Source of the DNA: a virus
Length of the DNA: 23,137 nt
IMG/VR virus record: IMGVR_UViG_3300043331_000106
Span: 1-23,137 of that record
Reading direction: 5' to 3' (one strand)
Within the stretch, counting starts at the first letter, position 1, and the number at the start of each line of letters is the position of its first letter. A model generated the notes under the pieces. It was not told the origin of the DNA and did no database searches. It saw only the letters and a list, made by a program, of their open reading frames with translations. Of the stretch, positions 8,041 to 13,971 are shown in pieces. The translations under genes were made by a program, and so were the position numbers.

Positions 8041-9279
8041 TCAGATGCCCGTTACAGTGGCAAACGCCGCCGGTCGGTAGACCGCCAAGGCCAATCTTTC
8101 TTCAGCGAGGATCGTCACGAGGTTGCTGGTGAAGTCCGAGGCGTGCTCGGTCGCCAGTTCCACCGTGATCCCCGAGCGCCGGAAGATCTGTGCGTGCGGT
8201 CGGAACGCACCGACGAGGCCGGTGTTCTCCGTCATCGCCGTGGTCACGCGCACCGGCAGTCCCCACATCCGCTCCACGTCGGTATCCTGCGGTGAGCCGA
8301 AGATGTAGATGCCGTCCGCCGTCCTGAGCAGGCGGATGTCCTGCCAGTCGTTCGGGTGCATGACGATCGCCGTGGGTTCGCTGAACGCCACAGCGCGGAT
8401 CTTCGTGATCGCCTTGTACACCGCGTCCGGGGTCGGGTCGGCGCCCTTCGCCTGCGTCTGAAGCCCTACGCGGTCGGTGATGCCGGAGATGTTCGGCGCC
8501 GTGCCGTCCCCGACGAGCAGTTGCGTCTCTTCGCGCCTGCGGACCATGAACGCCAGCCGCTCACGGACGTAGGACTCGAAGCCCCGCACGTCTGCCAGCA
8601 GCTCGTCCGTGGCCTTGAGCCACGTCGCGATCTTCCGCACCGGCTCGGTTGTCTCGGTGAAGTCAAGCGCCGATTCCGGCTTCGCCGCCGCTTCCGCGAC
8701 TTCCGCCGCCGCGTTGGTGAACGTCGTCTCCGTGAGGATCGACAGGCTGTTGTTGTCCGTCGTGCCCTGCAGCATGAGATCCGCGACAGTGACTTCTTCC
8801 TGCGCCGACCGGACGATGTTCGGCAGTCGCGTGGCCGGGTTGTTGATGTCCGTCAACGCGATCGTGTTCTTGTACTCCGGGTCGGTGACCCACTTCAGCT
8901 CCGCTGCGTCCGAAAGGTCGATGAGGCAGGACTGTGCCTGTCCCATGCGAAACGCCTTCAGTTCGCCGGACTCGGCGAAGATCTGGCGCATGGCCTTGAC
9001 CTTCGGCTCGCCGCTCGGCTGCGGCGGGGTGCCGATGATGTTCGCTGGCTTGTTCCAGCGGTCGTTGCCCTTCACCGCCGCGTCGCGCACGTCTTCGAGT
9101 TGCTTGCGCTGCTCAAACTGCACACCGAGGTCGGTGAGTTCGTCGTTGCGCTTCTTGATGTCGGCGGCTTCGTCCGCCGTGAAGTCCAGGTCGGGCTTGT
9201 TGGCGAAGATGTCGTGGAGTTGCTTCTGCTTTGCGGCGATCTCCTCCTGGAGTTCCGCCGCGGTCCTGGTCTTGTTCAT
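8041..9279 (-). CDS. major capsid protein, HK97 fold
   Basis: A 412-aa protein that builds the icosahedral head. The first ~70 residues form a charged helix (TAAELQEEIAAKQKQLHDIF) like the HK97 delta/scaffold domain, which the adjacent protease should remove. The body has features seen in HK97-type capsids: a central AEVAEAAAKPESALDFTET segment, then KIATWLKATDELLADVRGFESYVRERLA, IVMHPNDWQDIRLLRTADG, GLPVRVTTAM and a C-terminal RPAAFATVTGI. The length and order (portal, protease, capsid) match the family. ATG 9279 overlaps the protease stop (ATGA), so the two are translationally coupled. Its downstream neighbour is separated by a hairpin. Confidence 0.95.
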   Translation of the reverse strand: MNKTRTAAELQEEIAAKQKQLHDIFANKPDLDFTADEAADIKKRNDELTDLGVQFEQRKQLEDVRDAAVKGNDRWNKPANIIGTPPQPSGEPKVKAMRQIFAESGELKAFRMGQAQSCLIDLSDAAELKWVTDPEYKNTIALTDINNPATRLPNIVRSAQEEVTVADLMLQGTTDNNSLSILTETTFTNAAAEVAEAAAKPESALDFTETTEPVRKIATWLKATDELLADVRGFESYVRERLAFMVRRREETQLLVGDGTAPNISGITDRVGLQTQAKGADPTPDAVYKAITKIRAVAFSEPTAIVMHPNDWQDIRLLRTADGIYIFGSPQDTDVERMWGLPVRVTTAMTENTGLVGAFRPHAQIFRRSGITVELATEHASDFTSNLVTILAEERLALAVYRPAAFATVTGI

Positions 9280-10064
9280 GTGTCCTTTCCTCCAAGCAGC
9301 GGCACGGGGCGATCGATAACGCCGATGCGCCGCAGCCCTTCGCTCATGCGCCGGAACCGCGCTTGTTCTGCGGCCACGTACAGAGCGATCCCGATCTCAT
9401 CCACGGCCTTCGGTTCAGGCGGCGCGACAAGCTCCTCCAAGTCGCTGGCGATCCCGCGTAGCGACTCGATGTTCTTGCCGATCCGTGAACGGTTGGCCTC
9501 GGAGAGCGTGCGGCCCTCCTTTTGGCGGAACTCGCGGCGCTCCCGCACGCGCTCCGCGTACGCAGACAAGCCGGACACCAGCTCGTCGGCGTGGTCTAAC
9601 GCTTCCTCGAATGTCGATGCCTTGATCGCCAGTGTCCCGGTGCCGATGCCGGCGCCGAGCGTCACGGGCGAGACTTCATGCACACGGAGCTTCTTCAGCA
9701 CGCGGACGTTGACGCCGTTCACGACGCCCGGTTCGGCGTCGATGACGTCGAAGCCGTACGACCATTCCTGCAAATCCCCGATGTCTTTGACCGACTCGTA
9801 CCAGTCTTTCCCCGCCGTGGTGTTCAGGTTGAACATGCCGTCGAAGATGGCTTGGGAGTCGTCGGCGGAGATCGAGCCCTTGCCGATGGCGTAGTGCGCC
9901 CAGTTGTGAGCCGGGAGGAGCCGCACGGCCTCGCCCTGCGTGAACGCGCCCGGAAGGGTTACATCACCGTCTTTATCGATGACGTTGAACGTGGAGAAGA
10001 TCGCCCGTACAGAGCCGGGCTTGTCCGCCTTGAGTTCGATCTGGAGGGATTTGCGCTCAGACAA
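9276..10064 (-). CDS. prohead maturation protease (HK97 S78-type)
   Basis: A 262-aa serine protease that cleaves the scaffold part of the capsid during head maturation. Visible catalytic candidates are His53 in LLPAHNW and Ser102 in LQEWSYGF, with the conserved KLRVHEVSPVTLGAG region (residues 125-139) carrying a third candidate, Glu130. The N-terminus has the family's IFSTFNVIDKDGDVTLPGAF. The start is TTG 10064: the AGGAG at 9 nt upstream lies inside a 13-bp hairpin. It is directly upstream of the capsid and shares an ATGA overlap with it. The C-terminal ~110 residues are a charged helical tail, likely a scaffolding-related part. Confidence 0.93.
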   Translation of the reverse strand: MSERKSLQIELKADKPGSVRAIFSTFNVIDKDGDVTLPGAFTQGEAVRLLPAHNWAHYAIGKGSISADDSQAIFDGMFNLNTTAGKDWYESVKDIGDLQEWSYGFDVIDAEPGVVNGVNVRVLKKLRVHEVSPVTLGAGIGTGTLAIKASTFEEALDHADELVSGLSAYAERVRERREFRQKEGRTLSEANRSRIGKNIESLRGIASDLEELVAPPEPKAVDEIGIALYVAAEQARFRRMSEGLRRIGVIDRPVPLLGGKDT

Positions 10065-10068
10065 GTGA

Positions 10069-10101
10069 AAGCGCTCCTACTCGCGACAAGTAGGAGCGCT
10101 T
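10069..10101 (-). promoter_or_regulatory. 13-bp perfect hairpin over protease RBS
   Basis: The minus-strand transcript folds AAGCGCTCCTACT against AGTAGGAGCGCTT (13 bp, no mismatch) with a 7-nt loop. The 3' arm contains the AGGAG that serves TTG 10064, so the ribosome site would be masked when the hairpin forms. There are three T and then mixed sequence after it, so termination is possible but not convincing. A third copy of AAGCGCTCC (10113-10121 read on the minus strand) could compete for the 3' arm. Confidence 0.8.
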
Positions 10102-10135
10102 GATGTCGCTGCGGAGCGCTTGTTATGCGGTTGGC

Positions 10136-10276
10136 TTAGTTTGCGGCTACAGTAAGCCCCTTGTCAAGGTTCACGCGGTTGGTTGCCCGACAATTCGAGC
10201 ACTTGATTACCACCGAGCCGACCCCTGTCTCGTTGACGGCGAGCTTGTGATTGCAGCGCCAGCAGCGGATGTCCAT
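10136..10276 (-). CDS. Com-like zinc-finger regulator
   Basis: A 46-aa protein with C5-WR-C8 and C26-SN-C29, in the setting MDIRCWRCNHKLAV...VVIKCSNCRATNRVNL. This spacing and the IRCxxCxxxL / IKCxxCxxxN pattern are those of Com of phage Mu and its relatives. Mu Com is a zinc-binding translational activator that opens an mRNA stem hiding the ribosome site of the DNA-modification gene mom. Here the next element downstream is a hairpin masking the protease ribosome site. ATG 10276 has AGGAAG with 6 nt spacing. It lies between portal and protease with 42 nt from the portal stop. Family fairly sure; regulatory role here inferred. Confidence 0.82.
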   Translation of the reverse strand: MDIRCWRCNHKLAVNETGVGSVVIKCSNCRATNRVNLDKGLTVAAN

Positions 10277-10318: not shown

Positions 10319-11656
10319 TCACGCCACCAACTCCCGCACACCGTTCCCGTTTCCATTGGGCGAAGGCAACGCAGGCGGTTCCAGCACCGGCTCGTTATCC
10401 GGCCCTACCGCCGTGACATTCTGCGCGCGCAGGTAGATCTCGTCGTCCGACGTCACCGGCAGCGCCATCGCCCGCTTCGCCTCGGACACCATCACCCAGC
10501 CGTCTCGCACGCCCTGGCTCATGCGTGTCGCCATCTTATCCATGTCCGGCTGCAGCACGCGCACCTTCGACAGGTCGAAGCCAACGCGGATGTTGTCGCG
10601 CTCTCCCCAGAAGTCTGGGCCGAGCTGGTTGGTCAGATCTGCCGCAAAGAGTCTCTGTGTCGGGATCACGTTACCCTCATAGGCTGCTTCGCGGGCTTCG
10701 GCGAAGTTGGTAAACGTCGCCCGATCCAAGCCTGCACCCAATCCCACAACCACAGCGGCTACGCCGTAGATCGCCGTCACGCGCTCCTCTGGCACTCGAC
10801 GCAGGTCACGGAGCATCATCTGCTCGGGCGAGAACGAGAGAATGTTGACCTTCGCCGGCGCTGTCAGCACCATCGGACGCCCGCGGCCATCGCCGCCGAA
10901 CTTCTCCGAGAGCTTCTGTTCCGTCTGTTCCGCCTGGTCGAGGCTGATACTACCCACTTGCGGATCAGGAGATACGACCAATCCCGGCACGCCGTAATGG
11001 GACATCATCTGTGCCGTAAAGTTCGACGCCTCTTCGTCCGTGAAGATCTCACGCATCAGCGATCGCAAGGGAGAACAGCCCTTACGGGTGTTGTACGGGT
11101 CCATCCCGTAGCGGAAATGCACGATGTCTTCCGGCTTGATGACGACAGGATCGATCTCGGAGTTGGGCCGGTACTCATAATGCGAGATAAAGGCCGACCC
11201 GTCGTCGGGCCACTTCGGTTCGACCGTCCATGACGGCGCCCACCAGAGCTCTGCTACCGTCCCGCCTTCGGATCGACGCTTGAGCCAGTAGGCGTTACCG
11301 GACATCGCCCAGTCAACGATCGTGCTGTGCCACATCAGCACGCCCGAGTAGTACGGATTTGGCTTCTCAATGAGTTTGGGCAGGCGGTTATTCAGCCGGA
11401 CTTCGCTGCCGTCTTGCTGCTCCTCGACGACGATCACCGGCGCCTCTGGGAACGTACGCGCCATCCACAGCACCACCGCCTGCACGATGTTCGATCGCGA
11501 GCCGTCGCCGATCTCTTCGGCATAATTGAACCGTGAGCGTGGTAAGAGGCCGGTAACGTAGGCCGCACCGTAGCCGGCCCAGCGCATCGTGAAGGCTTTG
11601 ACCGTTCGAGGGACGCGCCCAAATTGGCGCATAATCCACTTCATACCGCGACCCAT
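10319..11656 (-). CDS. portal protein, HK97-like
   Basis: A 445-aa protein that forms the dodecameric ring at the head vertex through which DNA enters and leaves. Family features are NIVQAVVLWMARTFPEAPV near the start, PNPYYSGVLMWHSTIVDWAMSGNAYWLK, IVHFRYGMDPYNTRKGCSPL and VPEERVTAIYGVAAVVVGLG. The length is normal for HK97-like portals. The start at ATG 11656 has AAGGAGG with 4-5 nt spacing and overlaps the TerL stop by 16 nt; a second ATG at 11644 would give an ATGA overlap but has a poorer ribosome site. The C-terminal SPNGNGNGVRELVA is probably a flexible end. Confidence 0.94.
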   Translation of the reverse strand: MGRGMKWIMRQFGRVPRTVKAFTMRWAGYGAAYVTGLLPRSRFNYAEEIGDGSRSNIVQAVVLWMARTFPEAPVIVVEEQQDGSEVRLNNRLPKLIEKPNPYYSGVLMWHSTIVDWAMSGNAYWLKRRSEGGTVAELWWAPSWTVEPKWPDDGSAFISHYEYRPNSEIDPVVIKPEDIVHFRYGMDPYNTRKGCSPLRSLMREIFTDEEASNFTAQMMSHYGVPGLVVSPDPQVGSISLDQAEQTEQKLSEKFGGDGRGRPMVLTAPAKVNILSFSPEQMMLRDLRRVPEERVTAIYGVAAVVVGLGAGLDRATFTNFAEAREAAYEGNVIPTQRLFAADLTNQLGPDFWGERDNIRVGFDLSKVRVLQPDMDKMATRMSQGVRDGWVMVSEAKRAMALPVTSDDEIYLRAQNVTAVGPDNEPVLEPPALPSPNGNGNGVRELVA

Positions 11657-13107: not shown

Positions 13108-13579
13108 ATGCCCTCGGCTTCGCTGGCTGCTTCAACTTGGCGATCGCGCTCTGCTCTTCCACCAATGTCAGACCCAGCCGCAATCGAGAGAGCGCGTCCA
13201 TACCGAACGCCTTCTCCAGTTCTCGGCAGGATGTCTCGCAGAGCTTCAGGTATCGGATCGTTGGGTTCAAGATTCGCTGCCGCGCTCCGTCGATAGTAAT
13301 CGACTGATCAGCTACTTCACGCGAAGCGCGAAACCACTGATCCACCCACCACAGCCACCGCCTCAGCGTTGGGAGATCGCTTGGCTTGAAGGCGCCTGCC
13401 AGCGGCGAACTCCACACTTCGTGCCAGATCTCGATCGCCTCGTCTCCTTCGACGTTCGCAGGTACGGACGGCACGACAGATACCTTGGGAGGGTCCACCG
13501 GCACCAATTCCCGATAGCGCCCGCCCCGCTTGAATACGAGTGCGTCCGGGTGCTTCTGACGCTGGCCCGCCATGATCAA
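13088..13579 (-). CDS. terS: terminase small subunit (P27-like)
   Basis: A protein of about 161-163 residues directly upstream of TerL. The pattern IEIWHEVWSSPLAGAF (residues ~49-64), DLPTLRRWLWWVDQW, then NPTIRYLKLCETSCREL and a C-terminal LGLTLVEEQSAIAKL is that of P27-type small terminase subunits, which bind the packaging site and recruit TerL. The start is uncertain: TTG 13579 shares bases with the HNH stop, whereas ATG 13573 is a better codon; GGAG lies 4 and 10 nt upstream respectively. Translation is probably coupled to the HNH gene in either case. Confidence 0.85.
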   Translation of the reverse strand: MIMAGQRQKHPDALVFKRGGRYRELVPVDPPKVSVVPSVPANVEGDEAIEIWHEVWSSPLAGAFKPSDLPTLRRWLWWVDQWFRASREVADQSITIDGARQRILNPTIRYLKLCETSCRELEKAFGMDALSRLRLGLTLVEEQSAIAKLKQPAKPRAYDDGGT

Positions 13580-13971
13580 ACTGCTCCATCCCGCACGCGC
13601 GCAGAAACTGGGCGGAAGCTCGGTTCCGCTGATCGAACTTTAGAGATTGAATCGGACGGCCCCCACCGCGCGATCCGTGCTTCCTGTTGCGCCTTCGCCT
13701 TGTTGCACGGTACACATGCAGCTTGCAGGTTGCTGTCGTCGTCGCTACCGCCACGCGCTCGGTTCAGTCGGTGGTCTGCTACCTGCGCTATCCCTACACA
13801 GCCTGGTAGCCGTAGCTGGCAGACATAGCCGTCTCGCCGCAGCACTCGCGCTTTAGCGTTGCGGCTTGCCCGTGTAGTTACGTGCTTCCTGCCAGCGAAC
13901 GCGATAGGCCGATGCGTCTCGCAGGGTTCGAGGTTCCCGCACGTTGGGTTCGTGCAGAATCTCCTACTCAT
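13576..13971 (-). CDS. HNH endonuclease next to terminase
   Basis: A 131-aa HNH nuclease. The zinc and active-site framework is visible: CQLRLPGC (51-58), VADH with the catalytic His at about 67, Asn81, and CVPCNKAK (86-93). Three extra Cys near the N-terminus (C6, C11, C17, with H20) suggest a second zinc site. In many phages with cos ends an HNH protein encoded beside the terminase helps TerL cut at cos, which fits this position. ATG 13971 overlaps the previous stop by 8 nt. The role in packaging is known for related phages and inferred here. Confidence 0.9.
   Translation of the reverse strand: MSRRFCTNPTCGNLEPCETHRPIAFAGRKHVTTRASRNAKARVLRRDGYVCQLRLPGCVGIAQVADHRLNRARGGSDDDSNLQAACVPCNKAKAQQEARIARWGPSDSISKVRSAEPSFRPVSARVRDGAV

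Follow-up and report, generated by a model that had tools for sequence, protein, structure and literature searches.

Com proteins are known as regulators of DNA-modification genes. In phage Mu, a small zinc-finger protein of the CCCC type is encoded just upstream of its target mom, whose start region is folded such that ribosome access is blocked; the stem of this fold holds the mom start codon, and the Com site forms a separate short hairpin (PMC6483171). SELEX with a Mu-type Com from Haemophilus sputorum returned the motif GAG(N)2CC, mostly in two copies, the natural Mu Com site being GAAUGCCUGCGAGCAUCCC, and binding of Com to the motif is weak when the latter is duplexed (PMC6483171). Members of the same family are encoded in P2-like and B3-like phages (KS5, B3 and Chuche), where the com gene overlaps a downstream DNA methyltransferase gene and tandem GAGNNCC motifs precede the start of the latter.

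Here, we analysed a viral contig, hereafter the window, over its whole length of 23,137 nt. As in Mu, a protein of the Com family is encoded just upstream of its putative target, the start region of the target is predicted to fold in a manner blocking ribosome access, as backed by compensatory changes, and GAG-containing candidate Com sites, which agree with the strict motif in six of ten leaders but not in the window, lie beside or within the fold. However, the gene behind the leader in the window and in the other contigs encodes a portal protein or a head protease (S78 or ClpP-like) and not a DNA-modification enzyme, and the site is present in two copies, each of which can pair with the Shine-Dalgarno arm to yield two exclusive hairpins. 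This architecture of first repeat (R1), spacer, second repeat (R2), loop and 3' arm was not found in the com-methyltransferase loci that we scanned. Head operons of the HK97 type whose ribosome site is open (L003–L013) share the protease, portal and capsid families with the window, but they lack com, and wherever their start is clear, TAGGAGG closely precedes it and a masking hairpin was not seen.

A Com-like gene within an HK97-type head operon

The head operon occupies the minus strand of the 23-kb contig in the order terminase, portal, small com-like gene, prohead protease and capsid (Table 1). Its protease is assigned a TTG start codon (10064-10062), which is supported by relatives of the protease that begin at the equivalent codon. 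The initial annotation had linked protease and capsid through an ATGA overlap, and the capsid ATG (9279) indeed overlaps the protease stop. As in many HK97-type phages, the small terminase gene is closely preceded by an HNH endonuclease gene (13576-13971, minus strand).

The product of the com-like gene, MDIRCWRCNHKLAVNETGVGSVVIKCSNCRATNRVNLDKGLTVAAN, carries the cysteine pattern CWRC...CSNC. Its proposed kinship to Com is borne out by a match to PHROG 6417 'translational regulator' (E=2.4e-7) and by profile-profile comparison with classical Com (97.7%). That is, alignment of the Com-like proteins collected here against classical Com proteins (KS5, B3, Chuche and others) using hhalign gave a probability of 97.7% at E=1.9e-12, which argues for membership of one family but, zinc ribbons being short, does not prove a common specificity. 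The Pfam Com model (PF10122) matched the window protein weakly, with 14.1 bits, below the cut-off of 22.9. The predicted structure is zinc-ribbon-like, with two strands of at least four residues and a mean pLDDT of 76.

Table 1. Features of the com-head gene region in the window
Feature	Coordinates	Strand	Evidence or remark
Portal protein	10319..11656	-	PF04860 E=9.1e-48; upstream neighbour of com
Com-like zinc-ribbon gene, 46 aa, CxxC-x17-CxxC	10136..10276	-	PHROG 6417 and profile-profile comparison
Promoter-like site at com 3' end	10138..10167	-	TTGACA (10167-10162), 18 nt, CAAACT (10143-10138)
R1, AAGCGCTCC, first direct-repeat copy	10113..10121	-	candidate Com site; 5' strand of alternative hairpin B
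Spacer GCGAC	10105..10109	-	complementary to loop GTCGC, with covariation among members
R2, AAGCGCTCC, second repeat copy	10093..10101	-	5' arm of hairpin A
Loop segment GTCGC	10083..10087	-	spacer partner in hairpin B
3' arm AGTAGGAGCGCTT with Shine-Dalgarno AGGAG (10078-10074)	10069..10081	-	
HK97-type prohead protease (S78), TTG start	9276..10064	-	PF04586 E=9.6e-12; PHROG 80 E=3.3e-32
Major capsid protein	8041..9279	-	PF05065 E=1.3e-48; start overlaps protease stop

The leader RNA is predicted to have two mutually exclusive foldings

A perfect 13-bp hairpin shortly downstream of com, masking the AGGAG of the protease in its 3' arm, had been noted previously, and each of these details holds: the arms (10101-10089 and 10081-10069 on the minus strand, AAGCGCTCCTACT/AGTAGGAGCGCTT) enclose a 7-nt loop, the 5' arm starts 34 nt past the com stop, and AGGAG is spaced 9 nt from the protease TTG. 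What does not hold is the notion of a simple single hairpin. Past com, the minus strand reads AAGCGCTCC GCA GCGAC ATC AAGCGCTCC TACTT GTCGC GAGTA GGAGCGCTT TCAC TTG, giving a leader of about 60 nt composed of R1, spacer, R2, loop, 3' arm and start codon. The R1 copy, the spacer-loop complementarity and a TTGACA within the terminal com codons had gone unreported. As the 5' arm occurs twice and the spacer is complementary to the loop, two mutually exclusive foldings arise, namely hairpin A, in which R2 pairs with the 3' arm, and hairpin B, in which R1 and the spacer pair with the loop and the 3' arm. We also considered an H-type pseudoknot, in which the spacer:loop and R2:arm pairings form simultaneously, but both in the window and in L113 the linkers seemed too short for it, and mutually exclusive hairpins are therefore preferred. 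Exact copies of AAGCGCTCC are confined to this leader, and a REP-like or stoperator identity of the repeat was rejected on this ground.

The window leader folds with z = -4.6, none of 200 shuffled sequences being equally stable. A 13-bp stem anywhere in the 23-kb window nevertheless appeared in two of 60 shuffles and is thus not very rare by itself. The decisive evidence for the element in the window is comparative rather than the rarity of its stem.

Related leaders precede head genes in uncultured phages

Nine further leaders were obtained, all on contigs of uncultured phages (L028, L068, L101, L102, L103, L113, which equals L128, L115, L121 and L124). The capsid relatives L028 and L029 carry a Com-like gene and a perfect hairpin of different sequence right before the protease ATG. 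Searching with a Com profile led to L068, whose Com is 68% identical and whose leader of the same kind lies ahead of a portal gene. The remaining seven leaders were found by three DNA-pattern scans built on the leader alone. In all ten leaders the Shine-Dalgarno sequence is masked in the predicted fold and the G-run lies 8–11 nt ahead of the start codon; seven of the leaders use TTG and three use ATG. The downstream gene encodes an S78 protease in the window, L028 and L101, a ClpP-like head protease in L103, L113, L115, L121 and L124, and the portal in L068 and L102.

A Com-like gene is located immediately upstream in nine of the ten cases, that is, in the window and in eight of the nine others, the leader without an adjacent com being that of L101. 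There, the leader is preceded by the gene of a small protein whose CxC...CxH pattern is SWIM-like (L101:2575-2892); this protein might be a substitute RNA- or DNA-binding partner. Among the seven leaders found through the RNA pattern only, six are preceded by a CWRC...CxxC gene ending at most 50 nt upstream, compared to none of about 49 other pattern sites, corresponding to p of about 2e-7 by our own arithmetic, although some of the contigs are related. Membership of the window is not circular, since a covariance model built without it detects the window site with 38.1 bits (E=1.6e-7); the next-best matches of this model had E=0.033 (same palindrome, other strand) and 0.21.

Distant Com-like genes lacking the leader, a kind of counter-case named in the initial annotation, do exist (L064, L065, L069 and L081). 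Two of these distant zinc ribbons lie near head-tail genes of the cultured Arthrobacter phages Ottawa (L064:1749-1922) and Kovu (L065:2492-2719), and they are followed by terminator-like hairpins distant from the next start rather than by the leader. Relatives of the protease without com (L003–L021) have no such leader, and the closest of them have TAGGAGG shortly before ATG. A zinc ribbon before the protease in L022 is a different protein and has no leader. In L009 and L012, the gene ahead of the protease ends in an intein/HINT-like manner (VYNLQTIRGFYVAEGIIAHNC).

The leader had no match up to E=1 among the 4227 Rfam families. The RNA model gave 13 weak matches in 398 Pseudomonadota genomes, none of which has a Com-like gene and none of which is a true member; those inspected represent a tRNA tail terminator (L158), coding sequence (L161) and a gene-end terminator (L167). 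A scan of 240 genomes of the same class with the leader pattern gave one match. Querying viral contigs with the portal did not reveal relatives, the single match of the Com query in bacterial contigs was false, and the DNA of the element gave only a chance match in sequenced phages. Our search of the open-access literature turned up no account of a Com leader placed before head genes.

Compensatory changes support both hairpins

Across the leaders, 93.7% of the R2:arm pairs are standard and three pairs are changed on both sides, as compared to 40–73% pairing when the strands are slid against each other. The spacer:loop pairs are standard in 100% of the cases in eight sequences, with UA/AU/GC and GC/AU swaps, and their covariation score was reached by none of 500 shuffles; the window has the same pairing as the members (GCGAC/GTCGC). 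In eight of nine leaders, the energies predicted for the two hairpins differ by no more than about 5 kcal/mol (A/B), e.g. -21.8/-22.0 in L068, -23.6/-23.5 in L102, -24.7/-24.6 in L124 and -28.8/-25.4 in the window. The exception is L028, where R1 is degenerate and hairpin B weak. As judged from these pairings, the conserved leader is predicted to mask the ribosome site of the head gene in both the A and the B state.

These data bear on two alternatives. First, the element might be an ordinary terminator or RNA-processing hairpin located by chance beside a zinc-ribbon gene and free of regulation by Com, as phages often contain stable GC-rich hairpins and 13-bp stems do arise in shuffled windows. 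Given the conservation of the duplicated repeat, the covariation of spacer and loop and the association with com in independently found contigs, we regard this as very unlikely. Second, the repeats and palindromes would be typical of protein sites on DNA, so that the conserved site could act as an operator, packaging or recombination site. Yet, it always lies on the coding strand at a fixed distance to the start codon, its position relative to the terminase and portal genes varies, and the asymmetrical spacer-loop pairing covaries, which renders a function as DNA highly improbable.

Promoter-like sites and U-rich tracts

The promoter-like site of the window has a weak -10 element, and two of 300 shuffles contained a site as good. 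Strong TTGACA-17/18-TANNNT sites overlap the 3' end of com in L103, L113, L121, L115 and L124, 25–33 nt before R1, and consequently the leader may constitute a genuine 5' untranslated region transcribed from a promoter of its own. In L124 (3230-3330), the promoter-like unit TTGACAGGCTCCCCAGGGGGGTCGTAGCAT is present in two identical tandem copies, which lengthens the Com frame by a repeat (FDRLPRGVVA).

Several members, such as L068 (TTTTTTCTTT) and L124 (TTTTATTT), show by eye a U-rich tract past the stem. One could thus envisage a transcription attenuator, in which hairpin and U-tract stop transcripts from the promoter at the com end, Com or the choice between the hairpins brings about antitermination, and the masked ribosome site would be of secondary importance. 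The TTGACA sites at the com end of the window and the five contigs named above would fit such a device, as would the U-rich tails. However, the tail in the window is poor (TCACTTGT) and its hairpin was not flagged as an intrinsic terminator by our criterion (a GC-rich stem followed by at least five T in eight bases), the stem of L102 is followed by TTTCCCC, and a terminator would have no need for the spacing of 8–11 nt between G-run and start codon seen in ten of ten leaders. We consider attenuation unlikely.

Candidate Com sites and the sign of regulation

GAGNNCC is present in both R1 and R2 of six of the ten head leaders, usually as GAGCGCCCC, a match that is partly selected, because AGCGCYCC was included in one of the scan patterns and parts of the repeat were fixed in the other two. 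Freer of this bias are L068, found through its protein, as well as L101 and L103, found with a looser pattern. The repeats of the window (AAGCGCTCC), L028, L102 and L113 miss the strict motif. The Com of the window may have shifted its specificity, or the idea of a Com site may be wrong for the window phage.

The RNA does not dictate the sign of Com action, as A and B both mask the ribosome site. Com might act as a repressor: by binding R2 where hairpin B exposes it in its loop, Com would hold the Shine-Dalgarno arm on R1 and limit the output of head protein. R2 sits in a 14–17 nt loop of this hairpin, and SELEX placed the core motif of Com in hairpin loops (PMC6483171). On the other hand, the RNA would already be closed in form A without Com, so that little would be gained, and the only characterised Com, that of Mu, is an activator (PMC6483171). 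Repression is thus a distinctly doubtful option, and activation by Com, rather than repression or antitermination, appears most likely.

A model for Com-dependent activation of head genes

We lean slightly towards a leader RNA switch through which Com would control a head-assembly gene. In this model of activation, Com made from the upstream gene would bind R1 and R2 in their single-stranded form. As the two repeats are alternative partners of one arm, occupation of both would break hairpins A and B and free the Shine-Dalgarno arm, switching on translation of the head protease and, via ATGA coupling, also of the capsid protein. With its site duplicated and A and B almost equal in energy, the switch would be cooperative and tight, and head genes would be delayed until Com accumulates. 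With respect to the initially proposed Com-switched protease-capsid pair, the masked site, the adjacent Com and the motif in six of ten leaders are in favour, but the device is not tied to this pair, since the leaders of L068 and L102 precede the portal gene.

The leaders and their association with Com suggest that, in phages, the switch serving DNA modification in Mu is redeployed for head assembly. There is a somewhat better than even chance that they represent an undescribed mobile phage cassette, consisting of a com gene with a promoter at its 3' end and a bistable leader, both hairpins of which hold the Shine-Dalgarno sequence, placed before a portal or head protease gene, with Com timing head assembly. 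If so, phages would possess a means of timing capsid assembly post-transcriptionally, one that moves between genomes. The small protein and its RNA would also form a testable pair, the roughly ten natural leaders could serve to determine the specificity of Com, and many unexplained Com-like genes beside portal and protease genes would become interpretable.

Tandem motifs upstream of methyltransferase genes

All seven com-methyltransferase leaders examined (L062, L066, L067, L071, L072, L077 and L079) contain at least two GAGNNCC motifs just upstream of the methyltransferase start; the leader of phage Chuche reads GAGAGCC-ATC-GAGCACCCC. This tandem arrangement suggests that Com may also regulate these methyltransferases.
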